A stretch of 27,032 nt of DNA from the IMG/VR virus record IMGVR_UViG_3300025646_000283, positions 1 through 27,032 of that record; one strand, written 5' to 3'. The translations under genes and the position numbers were made by a program. This DNA comes from a virus. The notes beneath the pieces are model-generated. The model ran no database searches. It had not been told where the DNA came from and worked only from the letters and a program-made list of their open reading frames with translations. Below, piece by piece: positions 3,994 through 26,804 of the stretch (its first letter is position 1; each line of letters begins with the position of its first letter).

Positions 3994-5456
3994 TGATAAA
4001 TATGAATAATGTCCCTCCTAAACCGCAGGCTCCGAATACAATAGAGGAGCGTAGATGGGAACACTCTGCACTCAGACGCAGACTCCTGACAGGACTATGG
4101 GAGCAGGATCTTGAGGATGAGCTTCTCCGACATTTGCCAACGGACAGACGCGAAGCTCTCGGACCTTCTGATCTGTCATCCTGTGCTATTGAGCAAGTCA
4201 CGAGACAGCTCGCAATGCTATATCATTCTGAGCCCAATGTCACAGGAGACGGAGACATCTCTGCTCTCATTGGACGAGACGGATATGTCAGCAAAGCAGG
4301 CTTTTTTCAACTCATGCAAAAAGTACAGCAGATGACGCTCGGCATTAGAGAGATGTTTGTACGCGTCGACGTTGCTCCTCATGTACCAGGAGAGATCGCA
4401 CGAGTGCCTGGTCTATCATTCCGAGCAGTGACTCCTGATTTTGTTATTGCTGCTGCCTCCGAGGATGCTCCGGACATTCCTCTCTATTATCAGGAGCTCA
4501 GACTCAGGATGCATCCGGAGACAGGAGAGCCTATTTGGGTATGGGACATTCTCGATATACGCAATCCCAACGATCCTATTTTTGGGATGTTTGAGGCTAC
4601 TCCTACAGGAGACATCGGAGCCGATGTGTCAGAGATGTATATGGGACACGAGGCAATGAGAGGAGAGTACTATCCATATCGCAGTCGCGAAGGAGTCCCC
4701 TATCTTCCTGTTGTGCTATATCATGCCGAGAAGACAGGACAGCTATTTAACGCTTTTGACGCTGCACAGCTCGCATACGGATCTCTCACAGCTGCCGTCC
4801 TTTTTTCCTTCTATGTCCATTGCGTACGCGATAACTCATGGCCGCAAAAATATGTCGCAGGATTGCATCTCTCAGGACTCTCTCAGTTAGAAGGAGACTT
4901 GACAGGACGCAGATCAGCAATCAGCACAGATCCGAGTAGCATCCTCATGTTCCAGACAGAGCCCGATATGCAAGGTCAGCCTCTGATCGGCTCTTTTACG
5001 TATGCAGATCCTGCTCAGCTCCTGGACAGCATCTCAAAATATGAGTACAGAGTCGCAACTGCAGCAGGCATCTCGTCAGAGGTCTTGAGACAATCCGGAG
5101 ATCCAAGATCAGGATATGCACTCTCAATCTCAAGAGACGGACAAAGAGAAGCACAACGCAGATATGCTCCTGTGTTCCGACGAGCCGATGAGGAGATGCT
5201 CGCCAAATGTGCAATGCTATGTAATCGTTTTTTAGGTGCATCCCTTCCTGAGTCAGGATACAGAGTCGTATATACTCCTCTCGGACTCTCTCCGGAGGAG
5301 ATGCGAGCTCAGCGTGAGGACATAATCCAAAAGCTGACAGCAGGCCTCATCTCTCCTGTCGACGCTATGCAAATGCTCAATCCGGATCTTGATCCGATAG
5401 AGGCAAAGCAACAACTTGAGCGTATCCGACAAGAGAGAGCACAATACTCAATCTAA
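3993..5456 (+). CDS. Portal protein
   Basis: A 487-residue protein directly after the large terminase, where the portal gene of tailed phages normally sits. It is largely helical and acidic, with a helical C-terminal region (from about residue 370) containing long charged helices and the segment LRQSGDPRSGYALSIS. Portal proteins form the dodecameric ring through which DNA enters and leaves and to which the neck attaches. The assignment rests on size, position, and a middle region (about 250-400) that resembles portal stem and clip regions. The start overlaps the terminase stop as TAATG; an in-frame ATG nine bases on is an alternative. Confidence 0.85.
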   Translation: MINMNNVPPKPQAPNTIEERRWEHSALRRRLLTGLWEQDLEDELLRHLPTDRREALGPSDLSSCAIEQVTRQLAMLYHSEPNVTGDGDISALIGRDGYVSKAGFFQLMQKVQQMTLGIREMFVRVDVAPHVPGEIARVPGLSFRAVTPDFVIAAASEDAPDIPLYYQELRLRMHPETGEPIWVWDILDIRNPNDPIFGMFEATPTGDIGADVSEMYMGHEAMRGEYYPYRSREGVPYLPVVLYHAEKTGQLFNAFDAAQLAYGSLTAAVLFSFYVHCVRDNSWPQKYVAGLHLSGLSQLEGDLTGRRSAISTDPSSILMFQTEPDMQGQPLIGSFTYADPAQLLDSISKYEYRVATAAGISSEVLRQSGDPRSGYALSISRDGQREAQRRYAPVFRRADEEMLAKCAMLCNRFLGASLPESGYRVVYTPLGLSPEEMRAQREDIIQKLTAGLISPVDAMQMLNPDLDPIEAKQQLERIRQERAQYSI

Positions 5457-21619: not shown

Positions 21620-22015
21620 ATGGATCCTAATACATATCACGACGTATTTATAAACCTGGCAACAAACTCCCCTTTTTTGGCATGGATGATTTATAGCTAT
21701 CTGCAGACGAATAAACAGCTAGATTTGACACGCAACGAAAACAAGACAGAACGACAAGAGATGCAAGCTCAGCACAGAGCAGACGAGGAGATGATCCGGA
21801 CACGATATGACAAAGTGATCTCCGATCTCAATCATGACCGAAAAGGTTTTTTAGACAACATCTCAGGACGGATCGACACACTCGAGAGAGGGCAAGAGAA
21901 AATCTATCAACTCCTGGAGCCTCTGAAGGATCAGATACAGGAGATCAAAATCAAAGAGCAGTTAAAAAAAGAATTTGCGAGTAATGGCAACGGCTCTGCG
22001 AAAAATCGGGCGTAG
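21620..22015 (+). CDS. Holin-like membrane protein (BhlA/UviB type)
   Basis: A 131-residue protein with one N-terminal hydrophobic segment (about residues 8-27, SPFLAWMIYSYL) followed by TNKQLDLTRNENKTERQEMQ and a long charged coiled coil. This build, one short membrane helix plus an amphipathic coiled coil, is that of BhlA/UviB-type holins. It follows the endolysin by 6 nt, so it should be the membrane-permeabilising partner. Its last 54 nt overlap the leftward exonuclease gene. GAGGAATAATC precedes the start. Confidence 0.65.
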   Translation: MDPNTYHDVFINLATNSPFLAWMIYSYLQTNKQLDLTRNENKTERQEMQAQHRADEEMIRTRYDKVISDLNHDRKGFLDNISGRIDTLERGQEKIYQLLEPLKDQIQEIKIKEQLKKEFASNGNGSAKNRA

Positions 22016-22564
22016 ATGATACGCAGCTCTCCAGGAGAGACGAGAGATGACAGATGCTCTGCATAGCTTACGATACAGACGCATACAATCAAGAGCATCC
22101 TTTTCAGCTCTGTGTCCTCCTGAGAGACTCCATCCAAAATAGCGACGGATTGAGTCCAGACTCAAAAACGGCAAATGATAGAGATGCTCATGAGCGAGAG
22201 TGATCGTATCGATGATACGACGATCATATCTCGCTCTGAGTCCGTTGCGATGCAGAGACTCTGCGATAAACTCCTCATCAAATCGGACATTGTGAGCGAT
22301 GAGGACGCAGTCTGTCAGCATCTCAGCGATCCGAGGCATGACGAGATCAGCAGACGGAGCTGCGTGCCATTCCTCCTCATTGTATCCATTGATCTCTAAT
22401 GCCGTAGGCTCTGCATATTCGATTCTCTCAGGACGGATTTTTGTTGTGTATATGTCCTCTCTTCCGTCAGGATAGACTCGGACGATTGAGATCTCTATGA
22501 TCTCATGTAGACAGGCATTGAGTCCGGTAGTCTCTACGTCGACAAAGGCAAGCGTTTTTTTCAT
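21962..22564 (-). CDS. DEDDh 3'-5' exonuclease (DnaQ-like)
   Basis: A 200-residue leftward gene with all exonuclease motifs: ExoI FVDVETTG (D9, E11), ExoII HNVRFDEEF (D96) and ExoIII HRAEKDAL (H151, D156). This is the proofreading-type domain of DnaQ/epsilon and of many phage exonucleases, degrading DNA or RNA from the 3' end with two metal ions. The C-terminus is basic (RRAVAITRKFFF). GGAGG lies 5 nt before the start on the minus strand. It reads opposite to all neighbours and is divergent from the HTH gene at 22655, ending inside the holin gene. Confidence 0.9.
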   Translation of the reverse strand: MKKTLAFVDVETTGLNACLHEIIEISIVRVYPDGREDIYTTKIRPERIEYAEPTALEINGYNEEEWHAAPSADLVMPRIAEMLTDCVLIAHNVRFDEEFIAESLHRNGLRARYDRRIIDTITLAHEHLYHLPFLSLDSIRRYFGWSLSGGHRAEKDALDCMRLYRKLCRASVISRLSWRAAYHLRPIFRRAVAITRKFFF

Positions 22565-22598
22565 GATTCCTCCAATTGTAATTATTTTGTTGTCAGTC

Positions 22599-22617
22599 TG
22601 TTAACAGTATGATAACA
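22599..22617. promoter_or_regulatory. Operator-like inverted repeat between exonuclease and HTH gene
   Basis: TGTTAACAGTATGATAACA is an imperfect 19-bp inverted repeat (arms TGTTAACA and TGATAACA, 7 of 8 matching), and it contains the perfect 10-bp palindrome CTGTTAACAG (22598-22607). It lies in the 90-bp divergent region. A -35-like TTGTCA at 22590-22595 points right, so a repressor bound here could control both directions. The HTH protein at 22655 is the natural candidate to bind it. Confidence 0.45.
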
Positions 22618-22936: not shown

Positions 22937-23270
22937 ACAGTTCAATCCGGCTCTCTTGCCAACAAAGATCCCTGAAAAATACACAGCGATGCGTCCGAGG
23001 ATCCCGAATAACATCAAATGTAAAGAAGTGATGAATCTATTCCTTGCTTTGATTGCTGAGTGCAATGGACACTATGATGAGGAGCAATTCGCAGACTTTG
23101 TTGGACTCGCTCCGATGACAGTCAAGCACTACAAATATGGCCGGCCTCCTGGCAGAGATAGACACATTGCCATTAGTCGCTATTTTGCAGCTCTCACGTC
23201 TCGCAAATATGCAGACATACTGCAAGATCTCAGGAGAGTATACGACATTGCACACAAGAGGACAAAATGA
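22929..23270 (+). CDS. Small HTH-like protein
   Basis: A 113-residue basic protein. Residues about 50-80 (EEQFADFVGLAPMTVKHYKY) look like a helix-turn-helix, followed by GRPPGRDRHIAI. It overlaps the HTH gene before it and the SWIM gene after it, so all are co-transcribed. It is probably a second DNA-binding regulator. I do not recognise a more specific family. Confidence 0.6.
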   Translation: MRRQFNPALLPTKIPEKYTAMRPRIPNNIKCKEVMNLFLALIAECNGHYDEEQFADFVGLAPMTVKHYKYGRPPGRDRHIAISRYFAALTSRKYADILQDLRRVYDIAHKRTK

Positions 23271-23554
23271 TCAGAGAGCCAAGCGAGCACATAGCAAAAC
23301 AGGCCGAAAAGGTCAAGATTTTGAGAATGCAGACGGAGCATCATGAGATTATCGGTATCCCCTACCGAATCACGAGAGCAGACGTACTCAACACCAAAGG
23401 CACAGGATACTATCGCACGATACTGTATGAGGAGCCAGGGAAAACACGCTCATTCAGTACTTGTCTCTGCGACGGATTCCAATTTACAGGCAACTGCAAG
23501 CATATTGCTGCTGTTTTTGCTGCGTCAAGACCGACAGAGGAGGATAAATCATGA
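23267..23554 (+). CDS. Small SWIM-type zinc-binding protein
   Basis: A 95-residue protein. C66-x-C68 and, eight residues on, C77-x-H79 (CLCDGFQFTGNCKHI) match the CxCx(n)CxH motif of SWIM domains, which bind zinc and mediate DNA or protein contacts. The protein is nearly only this domain plus a basic helix. It lies in an operon just before a Holliday junction resolvase; SWIM proteins are known to work with recombination factors in other organisms, so a recombination helper is possible. It overlaps both neighbours. Confidence 0.7.
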   Translation: MIREPSEHIAKQAEKVKILRMQTEHHEIIGIPYRITRADVLNTKGTGYYRTILYEEPGKTRSFSTCLCDGFQFTGNCKHIAAVFAASRPTEEDKS

Positions 23555-23937
23555 TAGTATCTATCGAGCCGATAGCCTGTCCTCGTCCGAGAGTCACGCG
23601 TCAAGGGAGCACATATTATCCTATGCGTTATAAGATTTGGATTAAGGAGATGCGAGAGAGACTGCAAGATATGCCGATACCGGAGGGATCTTTGCACGTC
23701 GATCTCCTGTTTATCGTCAAGCGTCCGAAGGCGATGAGGACTCCTCCTGAGAGAGTTTTGCACAGCAAAAGACCGGATCTGGACAATATGGTCAAGGCAG
23801 TGCTTGACGCTCTGCCGATAGAGGATGACGCAAGGATCGTCTCATTGTCTGCTCGCAAATACTACGCAGCAGCAGGAGAGGATCCACAAATAGAGCTGCA
23901 TGTAATGTCATGCGACGAAAAAAAGAGCCTCCGATAG
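23551..23937 (+). CDS. rusA: RusA-type Holliday junction resolvase
   Basis: A 128-residue protein with KRPDLDNMVKAVLDAL (D76, D78, K82) and IEDDARIV (D93), matching the catalytic acids and lysine of RusA. The N-terminus PRPRVTRQG fits the family's basic entry segment. RusA cuts four-way junctions, resolving branched phage DNA before packaging. GGAGGATAAATC is the ribosome site and its ATG overlaps the SWIM gene's stop. Its own 3' end carries a hairpin. Confidence 0.9.
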   Translation: MIVSIEPIACPRPRVTRQGSTYYPMRYKIWIKEMRERLQDMPIPEGSLHVDLLFIVKRPKAMRTPPERVLHSKRPDLDNMVKAVLDALPIEDDARIVSLSARKYYAAAGEDPQIELHVMSCDEKKSLR

Positions 23938-24000: not shown

Positions 24001-24900
24001 ATGCGTACATATACAATAACAGCATTTAGAAATATTTACAACAAAAACGATCAAACTCGTCTCTGCTACTCATGGGACACTCTCTGCAAGTTCATCGGCA
24101 AAAAGAGAGAGCCGATCGACAAGCTCAAACAAGCCTCCTGGAGTCCTGCGATTTTTGAGGGAGAGAGAAGTAACCAAAACGCACAAAAACTCTCTTGTCT
24201 CGTTGTCGACGTAGATGATCACGTCCTGCTCTATACTTGTGCAGTATGGATGCAGCTCTCACAGACTCAATGCTATATCCATACGTCAGTCTCTCACACT
24301 ATCGAGCAAAACAAATACAGAGTCATCTTGCCTCTCGCAGAGGATGCTCCCGCAGAGGAATGGAGACACTATCATGCAGCTCTAAAAACATGGTGGCAGT
24401 CAATGTTTAAGGACGCACCATTTGATCTCAGTACAAAGGATGCAGCAAGACTCTATTTTGTCGCGTACCATACAGAGCACTATCAAGAGCAAAAGCATAA
24501 CGGCAAGATCCTAGATTGGAAAAACAGAGCTCAGGATGAGAAAGTGAAATATGAGGAGGAGCTGAGACGCAGACAACAAGAGCAGCAGGAGAGACTGAGA
24601 CGAGCCGAGGAGCACAAAAGACAGTATGACAAAGGTCAATCACATAGCGATAAAAGGAGATACATGTATACTCTTCTCCGCAATAGCGAGGCAGAGAGAC
24701 TCAAATTTGCGAGATTCCTCGGATGCTCAGACACAGGAGACCGAGCAGTCAAATGGAGATGTCCAGGATGCGGACAGGACGATGCAACATTTTTTTATTA
24801 TGATCCGACTCGCTATCCGTCAGCGTACTGTAACCATAGAAACTCTTGTGGTTGGAAAGAGTCAGTCGGATACCTTGCAGAATTAAACGGCTATTTTTAG
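24001..24900 (+). CDS. PrimPol-like primase with C-terminal zinc ribbon
   Basis: A 299-residue protein. LVVDVDD (D70, D72) gives the first metal-binding pair of archaeo-eukaryotic primases, TSVSH (H99) fits their (s)xH motif, and KYRVILPL and DAARLYFVAYH follow. A charged coiled coil spans about 178-220. The C-terminus holds C254, C257, C277 and C283, a zinc ribbon like those of phage primases. The enzyme would make primers for phage replication. The downstream helicase gene starts 8 nt after it, forming a priming-unwinding pair. No DNA polymerase is in the window. Confidence 0.75.
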   Translation: MRTYTITAFRNIYNKNDQTRLCYSWDTLCKFIGKKREPIDKLKQASWSPAIFEGERSNQNAQKLSCLVVDVDDHVLLYTCAVWMQLSQTQCYIHTSVSHTIEQNKYRVILPLAEDAPAEEWRHYHAALKTWWQSMFKDAPFDLSTKDAARLYFVAYHTEHYQEQKHNGKILDWKNRAQDEKVKYEEELRRRQQEQQERLRRAEEHKRQYDKGQSHSDKRRYMYTLLRNSEAERLKFARFLGCSDTGDRAVKWRCPGCGQDDATFFYYDPTRYPSAYCNHRNSCGWKESVGYLAELNGYF

Positions 24901-24908
24901 GAGACAAC

Positions 24909-26207
24909 ATGAGCAACACACAACAATTACACACATCAACAGACGCAAGGATCCAAGTACTTCGCAATATGGGATTTGAGCTGAGAATCCGGAGATCAGA
25001 GTCCGGAGACAAGCTGCTGAGCAATCTTTTCAACCTGACGCAGCTCCTTAGACACCATCCTATATTCCGAGGACGAGCCAGATATGACGATTTTGCGGAG
25101 TCTATGACATGGGAGGCAGACGGAGGAGATCCTGAGAGAGTCACTGACTATCACATCGATCTCATCCGGTACGAGTGCGAGGACAGATGGGGAGTAGCAT
25201 TCAGTCAAGACAAAGCATGGTCAGCTTTTGAGATTGTCGCGAAGGAAAATCGCAGCAATCCTCTCCTGTCTCATCTCAATAGTCTGAGAGGTCAATGGGA
25301 CGGAAAAGAGAGAGCTCATCTCTTGCTCAGCAGCTATCTCGGAGCAGAGGACACGAACATAAACAGGTCTTATTCTGTCCGGTGGCTCCTCTCAATCATT
25401 GCACGAGCTCACGCGACAATCAGCAATCCGGTCAAAGTAGATACGACGCTCGTCTTGTACGGAGGACAGGGCATCGGCAAAAGTACAGCACTAGAGGCGA
25501 TCTGCTTTGCGTATGTATTCGGTGCTATCTATTTTGGAGACTCCGAGATCAATATGGACAACTACAAGGAGGCAGTGCAGAGCATACAAGGCAAACTCCT
25601 CTATGAGATCCAGGAGCTCGCCAAGAGATCAAAGTCTCAGGAGACGGAAAAAGCATTCCTGACTCGCAAAATAGATGACGTGCGGCTCCCCTATCGACGC
25701 AGCAATGAGCAGTTTGCGAGACGTACGGTCTTCTGTGCAACCACGAACAAAAAGAACGTCTTGCACGATGCAACAGGGTCGCGTCGTTTTTGGTGTGTGG
25801 ATCTCGGCAACAAGAAGATCGACATCGACAGACTGAGAGGAGATCTGCCTCAGATATGGGCTGAGATACTGCACTACTACGACACAGGAGAGCAGCATCA
25901 TCTCACAGACGCAGAGGAGGCTCTCCGGATTGAGTCGGCTCAAGATTTTACGGATCCTCATCCTCTCACTGACGCAGTCATCGACATCGCGGAGAGGCTG
26001 CAGTCTCCTTGCACAGTCGCTCAGATCATTGAGAGGCTGTATGAGTCAAGCGATCCAACTAAGGACAGCACTCGACATCTTGACAAGAGCACACGACAAA
26101 ATCAAGCGATCATCTCAGACATACTGCAGAGCAACGGATTTGTCTATGGCCGACGTGCAGCTCCGTACAATCCTCAGGTCAGACTTCGCGGATGGTGGAA
26201 GGGTTGA
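24909..26207 (+). CDS. VirE-type replicative helicase/ATPase
   Basis: A 432-residue protein starting at 24909, where GGAGACAACATG gives the ribosome site; an upstream start at 24846 lies inside the primase gene. Walker A GGQGIGKST is at residues 185-193, Walker B-like LLYEIQEL at about 231-238, and CATTNKK...GSRRFWCVDLG near 275-300 carries the arginines typical of the virulence-associated E family. Members are replicative-type helicases of phages and mobile elements, usually paired with a primase, as here. The origin-like region follows at once. Confidence 0.85.
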   Translation: MSNTQQLHTSTDARIQVLRNMGFELRIRRSESGDKLLSNLFNLTQLLRHHPIFRGRARYDDFAESMTWEADGGDPERVTDYHIDLIRYECEDRWGVAFSQDKAWSAFEIVAKENRSNPLLSHLNSLRGQWDGKERAHLLLSSYLGAEDTNINRSYSVRWLLSIIARAHATISNPVKVDTTLVLYGGQGIGKSTALEAICFAYVFGAIYFGDSEINMDNYKEAVQSIQGKLLYEIQELAKRSKSQETEKAFLTRKIDDVRLPYRRSNEQFARRTVFCATTNKKNVLHDATGSRRFWCVDLGNKKIDIDRLRGDLPQIWAEILHYYDTGEQHHLTDAEEALRIESAQDFTDPHPLTDAVIDIAERLQSPCTVAQIIERLYESSDPTKDSTRHLDKSTRQNQAIISDILQSNGFVYGRRAAPYNPQVRLRGWWKG

Positions 26208-26261
26208 AAAGTGGACGCGTCCAGCTAAGCCCACCTTAAGCCCACCATCTGAATCGTCAAT

Positions 26262-26287
26262 AACCTCGGTATATCCGAGGTTTTTTT
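26262..26287 (+). terminator. Intrinsic terminator after the helicase gene
   Basis: AACCTCGG (26262-26269) pairs with CCGAGGTT (26275-26282) over a 5-nt loop, followed by a run of Ts to 26287. It ends the rightward early transcript 55 nt after the helicase stop. Confidence 0.85.
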
Positions 26288-26361
26288 GTTGTGTCCACGA
26301 TGTCCAAGGTTTTTCTAAACATAATTACAATAATTATATTTTTTATAAAGTTTACAAATAA

Positions 26362-26379
26362 TTAGTGGACTTAGTGGAC
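26362..26379 (+). repeat. Tandem TTAGTGGAC repeats
   Basis: Two adjacent 9-bp copies (26362-26370 and 26371-26379) sit at the right edge of the AT-rich core. They share GTGGAC with other copies in the region, so they may be protein-binding iterons. Confidence 0.6.
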
Positions 26380-26511
26380 ATGGATATAAAATAGGCTCTC
26401 TATGTATCTATATCAGTGTTTTTGCGTCCAATAATTGCTGGCCAGATGGTGGGCTTAGGTGGGCTTTTTTGGACGCAGGAGGAAAAAATGCAAAAAAGTT
26501 AGATTATTTTG

Positions 26512-26540
26512 TTGACGTACTGAAAACAATAGAGCATATT
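26512..26540 (+). promoter_or_regulatory. Sigma-70-like promoter for the right-end early genes
   Basis: TTGACG (26512-26517) and CATATT (26535-26540) are separated by 17 nt. This is 5 of 6 and 4 of 6 to consensus with ideal spacing, about 40 nt before the start of the next gene. Confidence 0.5.
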
Positions 26541-26579
26541 GTTTACATGATGACAACACAACAACAAGGAGAAAACATC

Positions 26580-26804
26580 ATGACACAACAACAAAGACTC
26601 ATCGCAATCTCTACAGCAATGATCAGACTTTATGAAGCTAATCCACAATCTGAGATTGCAGCTCAATTTGTAAAAGCGTACTTTGCTCAAGACGTAAATA
26701 TGATCTCTCAGATCGTCGCAAAGTTTGAGGAGCAAATCTCTCATCTGTCAGTACAAGAGCAAGAAGCTATCTTGACATATCATGTACAACAGTTTGATAA
26801 ATAA
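26580..26804 (+). CDS. Small early protein, unknown
   Basis: A 74-residue helical, Gln- and Ala-rich protein beginning MTQQQRLIAISTAMIRLYEA. I use ATG 26580, which has AGGAG upstream and lies after the promoter; a longer frame from 26469 would read through the promoter region. The function is unknown. It is probably an early regulator or host-modifying protein, by position only. Confidence 0.65.
   Translation: MTQQQRLIAISTAMIRLYEANPQSEIAAQFVKAYFAQDVNMISQIVAKFEEQISHLSVQEQEAILTYHVQQFDK

Follow-up and report, generated by a model that had tools for sequence, protein, structure and literature searches.

The closest described systems are the PICI/SaPI rep-ori modules (SaPI1, SaPIbov1, EcCICFT073), in which the origin lies just 3' of rep and consists of facing iteron sets around an AT-rich region (PMC6092414). 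SaPI Rep and Cch2 recognise, through their C-terminal domains, iterons located downstream of their own genes (PMC7581432). Autonomous plasmid replication of PICI rep-ori modules has been shown in the literature, and a 2018 paper called the layout unique to phage-parasite islands and present in 'no other known bacterial replicon'. Here, we describe the same arrangement in a tailed phage; the layout, its conservation, the homology of the helicase and the association of repeats with helicase genes were all established by computation.

Replication genes and layout of the noncoding stretch

The window, i.e., the whole stretch of DNA analysed, comprises the 27,032 bases of an IMG/VR virus record and comes from a tailed phage that has TerS, TerL, portal and tape measure genes. 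A RusA-like resolvase gene (23551-23937) is followed by genes for a primase-like protein and a VapE-like helicase, the two that the initial annotation had rightly placed just upstream of the repeats. The primase-like protein has no Pfam match. The helicase is homologous to PDB 7PDS over residues 12-368 (phmmer E 3.8e-34; Foldseek E 6e-19); this entry was deposited as 'PriRep1 with dsDNA', and we take it to be Rep (Rep1) of SaPI1. For the C-terminal 90 residues of the phage helicase a winged helix is predicted; with this piece alone, winged helices led the Foldseek matches without reaching significance (E 0.2). A DNA search of the phage database gave no match, a scan of genome contigs confirmed no relatives, and Rfam and tRNA searches found nothing. 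Other genes observed were a small protein with a SWIM zinc finger, within the replication operon (23267-23554), an N6/N4 DNA methyltransferase adjoining the terminase (724-1908), and a DnaQ-like exonuclease on the minus strand (21962-22564) of a genome otherwise coded on the plus strand.

Features of the replication genes and of the noncoding stretch are as follows; L numbers designate loci from the IMG/VR comparisons described below.

24001-24900, + strand: primase-like protein, probably the partner primase (matches to PHROGs DNA primase families, best E 8e-15)
24906-26207 (start at 24906 or 24846), + strand: VapE-like helicase, proposed initiator (PF05272, E 1.6e-57)
25938-26207, + strand: C-terminal winged-helix domain of the helicase, proposed iteron binder (AF2 model H-H-H-strand-strand, pLDDT 79.5)
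26211-26223, no strand: palindrome GTGGACGCGTCCA, outermost on the left, two TGGAC iterons face to face (seen in the sequence; TGGACGCGTCCA also in L004-L006, right end in L008)
26217-26251, - strand: outer-left iteron array (left arm), two GGTGGGCTTA plus TGGACGC in 10-11 bp steps
26262-26290, + strand: intrinsic terminator of the replication operon, within the proposed origin (8-bp stem and T run)
26293-26305, - strand: inner-left iteron pair GTCCACgatGTCC, 9-bp step
26306-26364, no strand: AT-rich tract, proposed DNA-unwinding element (88% AT; AT-richest 56-mer of the window)
26365-26379, + strand: inner-right iteron pair GTGGACttaGTGGAC, 9-bp step
26425-26430, - strand: single reverse iteron between the inner and outer right arrays (also in L026, L053, L048 and L059)
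26443-26476, + strand: outer-right iteron array (right arm)
26509-26558, + strand: promoter of the following operon, carrying two operator-like palindromes, at the border of the proposed origin and probably outside it

Short TGG(A/G)C-based repeats, nested and inverted, thus lie in the interval from the helicase stop at 26207 to the gene that follows, in the order, from the outside inwards, outer array, terminator hairpin, inner pair GTCCACgatGTCC, AT tract, mirror pair GTGGACttaGTGGAC and outer array. The first iterons lie 4 nt past the stop and the inner pair at +86; steps are 10-11 bp in the outer arrays and 9 bp in the inner pairs, which gives two tiers with the terminator between them. 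Aligned as an inverted repeat, the arms, 26217-26251 and 26443-26476, share 89% identity (BLAST E = 1.4e-6 for the 27-kb record, uncorrected for choice of region). The left arm carries two exact copies of TAAGCCCACC; the right arm carries GGTGGGCTTA exactly at 26448 and GGTGGGCTTT with one change at 26458. The initial annotation had described a 35-bp inverted repeat with two copies per arm, enclosing an AT-rich tract of about 55 bp: the arms are real, with the second right-hand copy one change off, and from the order of the elements they are two facing iteron arrays. The tract is real as well (59 nt, 88% AT), flanked directly on both sides by the inner GTGGAC pairs, the arms having 191 nt between them, more than the tract alone. 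The GTGGAC/GTCC motifs noted on both sides do occur, including the tandem pair TTAGTGGAC (26362-26379) and the palindrome GGACGCGTCC (26213).

Of all 56-mers in the window, the one beginning at 26309 has the least G+C (6/56, with 14/56 at the next separate spot), so that the AT-richest point sits exactly between the inner pairs. All three genome copies of GGTGGGCTTA, all four of GTGGGC and four of six of GTGGAC fall in the region 3' of the helicase; taken together, 8 of 10 copies of GTGGAC and GTGGGC lie within 314 nt. Single-word statistics were weak because the iterons are split between these two spellings: the best single 6-mer was matched in 15% of shuffles for a 450-nt region and in 11 of 2000 for the 314-nt gap (both uncorrected for choice of region). 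An ungapped inverted-repeat scan gave no score above the best of 100 shuffles. Cumulative GC skew, expected from the initial annotation to change sign here, showed no clear change at the site; where the genome is small and nearly all genes are on one strand, this is weak evidence. Tests on the single stretch are weak, and the case rests on comparison.

Conservation in relatives and in other VapE phages

L004, with a helicase gene 94.9% identical to that of the window, is identical in DNA over 26252-26566 (315/315); its left arm differs and keeps TGGnC at 10-11 bp steps. In L005, L006 and L008 (helicases 62-68% identical) and in L011 the layout is kept and the arm words differ, e.g., TTTGACCAGC facing GCTGGTCAAA in L005, and GGTGGCCCAAA-GGTGGTCCAAA-GGTGGAC in L008; L005 has no clear right inner pair. 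Hairpins with a T run like that of the terminator are found in L004-L006 and L011. Conservation of the arms, proposed earlier as a check, holds for the layout and fails for the sequence: the exact arm pattern had no match in IMG/VR, since the arms are lineage-specific. Turnover of sequence within a constant arrangement is the pattern expected of protein-binding repeats.

Two further observations concern these relatives. In L011 (IMGVR 3300032073_000146) the VapE gene is in two frames around 4532-4541, by sequencing error or frameshift. The first gene past the repeats in the window (26580-26801) looks unrelated to its counterpart in L004 (from 7735), the preceding proposed origin being identical, which marks a recombination border at its end.

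The inner pairs were searched blindly, with the pattern GTCCACNNNGTCC-N(45-75)-GTGGACNNNGTGGAC and no protein information, in 2.9 million virus contigs of IMG/VR. The pattern matched 52 loci, against a chance expectation of about 0.15 (random bases, assumed mean contig of 15 kb). In 20 of the 52 a VapE/D5-type helicase gene ends at the motif, and some of these helicases, whole families, are only 25-29% identical to that of the window. For most of the families measured, the inner pair starts 69-97 nt past the helicase stop (window 86; L044 about 210). A podovirus group accounts for 29 loci, with DNA polymerase A, a nearby DUF5906 helicase and terminase, the motif lying between helicase and terminase wherever the contig is long enough. 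The remaining matches are one locus without a helicase on its contig (L016) and two in neither helicase group (L027 and L035). A pattern of equal composition, run as a control, matched 4 loci, none with VapE. In the podovirus group, clusters of GTGGACAAT iterons were seen in the helicase-terminase interval (L024, 7908-7982; L029, 9564-9638; L041, 7669-7743; and similar loci); they are probably the origin of that group.

Other VapE phages have repeated words of their own in the same place 3' of the VapE gene: TGTCAACAATGTCAACA in C. difficile phage phiCDKH02; GTTGCA in Staphylococcus SA2P and P. larvae Bob; GGTTGTC in Yersinia YeP5; GGATAC in Enterococcus AE4_2; GGTAAC in S. thermophilus CHPC1282; and GTTGTTACG in APSE-7. 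A predicted pattern built from other phages' iterons, GTCAAC/GTTGAC, was likewise searched blindly and found 24 loci, with a VapE 3' end 72-173 nt away in 14 and at 564 nt in one. Significant iterons were present in 24 of 54 non-redundant VapE 3' regions versus 3 of the 108 stretches taken from these loci as controls (control threshold slightly looser, 0/60 shuffles), and in 12 of 21 named phages (450 nt tested). Within the 450 nt tested, about 30 of the 54 surveyed regions and 9 of the 21 named VapE phages had no clear iterons; in Pseudomonas U5 iterons were seen by eye further downstream. Tandem spacing peaked at 9 bp in the smaller set (74 vs. 7.0 expected, s.d. 3.6); for the survey of 54 regions the peak was at 8-9 bp. 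Iterons beside VapE are common, not universal.

Proposed origin and alternative readings

We hold it highly probable that 26211-26476 is the origin of this phage, of the SaPI/PICI kind and theta-type, with the C-terminal winged helix of the helicase binding the TGG(A/G)C iterons. An iteron-type origin, as the initial annotation had suggested, is much the best-supported reading, because of the position, the AT-rich centre, the layout conserved despite the change of words, and the homology of the helicase to SaPI Rep. Binding by the helicase, melting and initiation of replication are what we infer. The VapE-type helicase would bind the iterons through its winged helix, and helicase rings would assemble on the facing arrays, one on each side of the AT tract since the arrays point in opposite ways; the inner pairs would position the rings at the tract, the DNA between them would melt, and the helicases would load themselves. 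The neighbouring primase may then prime theta-type replication in both directions, while the terminator within the origin would halt transcription of the helicase operon ahead of the melting site.

It is unlikely that the region is an origin at which the primase-like protein or a host protein binds the iterons and the helicase is loaded in a second step; the primase-like gene is adjacent as well, and the role of the helicase as binder is predicted, but SaPI Rep and Cch2 bind iterons through the C-terminal domain of the helicase (PMC7581432), and the association with repeats holds for very divergent VapE helicases of other phages.

We consider it very unlikely that the repeats are instead operators of a phage transcription regulator for the downstream early operon and no origin. 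They do precede a promoter (26512-26540), and HTH genes are nearby (22655 and 22929), but a separate operator motif, TTGTTNACNNNNTGNNAACA, already stands at this promoter and at the one in front of the HTH gene itself; the GTGGACnnnGTGGAC pair occurs nowhere else in the window; and across phages the helicase gene is the constant neighbour while downstream genes vary. The palindromic TTGTTNACNNNNTGNNAACA lies at 26509-26528 and 26539-26558, and the HTH promoter has it with a single mismatch (22587-22617; 0.03 matches expected). These sites are probably the phage's regulator/operator set, the HTH regulators using an operator other than the iterons.

A packaging (pac/cos) or recombination site is more improbable still: the motif does lie between helicase and terminase genes in the podovirus group, and the genes just downstream differ between the window and L004, but the terminase is not adjacent in the window (TerL at 2563, TerS at 63-719) or at the VapE loci, and the location of the repeats tracks the helicase. 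That the inverted arms form an RNA structure, terminator or attenuator can hardly be entertained, for, while a true terminator hairpin lies inside and the arms could pair once transcribed, they are 191 nt apart and carry tandem iterons at fixed steps that an RNA stem does not need, and Rfam gave no match.

Comparison with described replicons

The initial annotation did not recognise the layout, which is already known from PICI/SaPI origins. Every structural feature of the PICI rep-ori module is found in the window: a 7PDS-homologous initiator helicase of the Rep family, an origin immediately 3' of its gene, and facing iterons around an AT tract. The element is not a PICI. PICI satellites use a helper phage's virion proteins, whereas the window belongs to a tailed phage that encodes its own TerS, TerL, portal and tape measure; it also differs in iteron words, in having two iteron tiers, and in the terminator between them. 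SCCmec Cch2 likewise has repeats downstream of its helicase gene, bound by the C-terminal domain in Cch2 (PMC7581432) and predicted to be so here; Cch2 belongs to the D5_N/Primase_Cterm branch and its origin is putative.

Outside this group, the window has one site, beside the helicase gene, unlike satellite phage P4, which has two separate sites, ori and crr. No second site of the P4 type was found: the region holds every GTGGGC copy and the sole GTGGACnnnGTGGAC pair (the record may be incomplete). P4 alpha is presumably alike in being a helicase initiator that binds short iterons. Iteron plasmids (RepA/RepE) and lambda O origins share direct repeats adjoining an AT-rich tract; their initiator is a protein other than the helicase and their repeats lie on one side, whereas in the window the tract has repeats on both sides, pointing towards each other, and the adjacent gene encodes the VapE-like helicase, in the place of a RepA/RepE initiator.

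The published claim of 'no other known bacterial replicon' appears to be mistaken. In the literature searched, with most subscription journals outside it, no description of the layout as general in VapE phages was found; what is new is that helper-independent phages have this layout, that the array is two-tiered with a terminator inside, and that iteron words can be used for prediction. On balance, we favour the view that in tailed phages facing iterons around an AT tract 3' of a VapE/D5 helicase make up a widespread replicon type of which PICI origins are one offshoot. The words would be lineage-specific, often GTnnnC, and read by a fast-evolving C-terminal winged helix; of the two tiers seen here, the inner 9-bp pairs would serve melting, and the outer arrays would be alike within a phage and unlike between phages.

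The window and the survey indicate that the layout is common in ordinary tailed phages, which shifts the argument on PICI origins. The arrangement also offers a rule for sequence-based prediction of origins in many VapE-type phages, and an initiator/iteron pair whose specificity could be probed by exchanging C-terminal domains.
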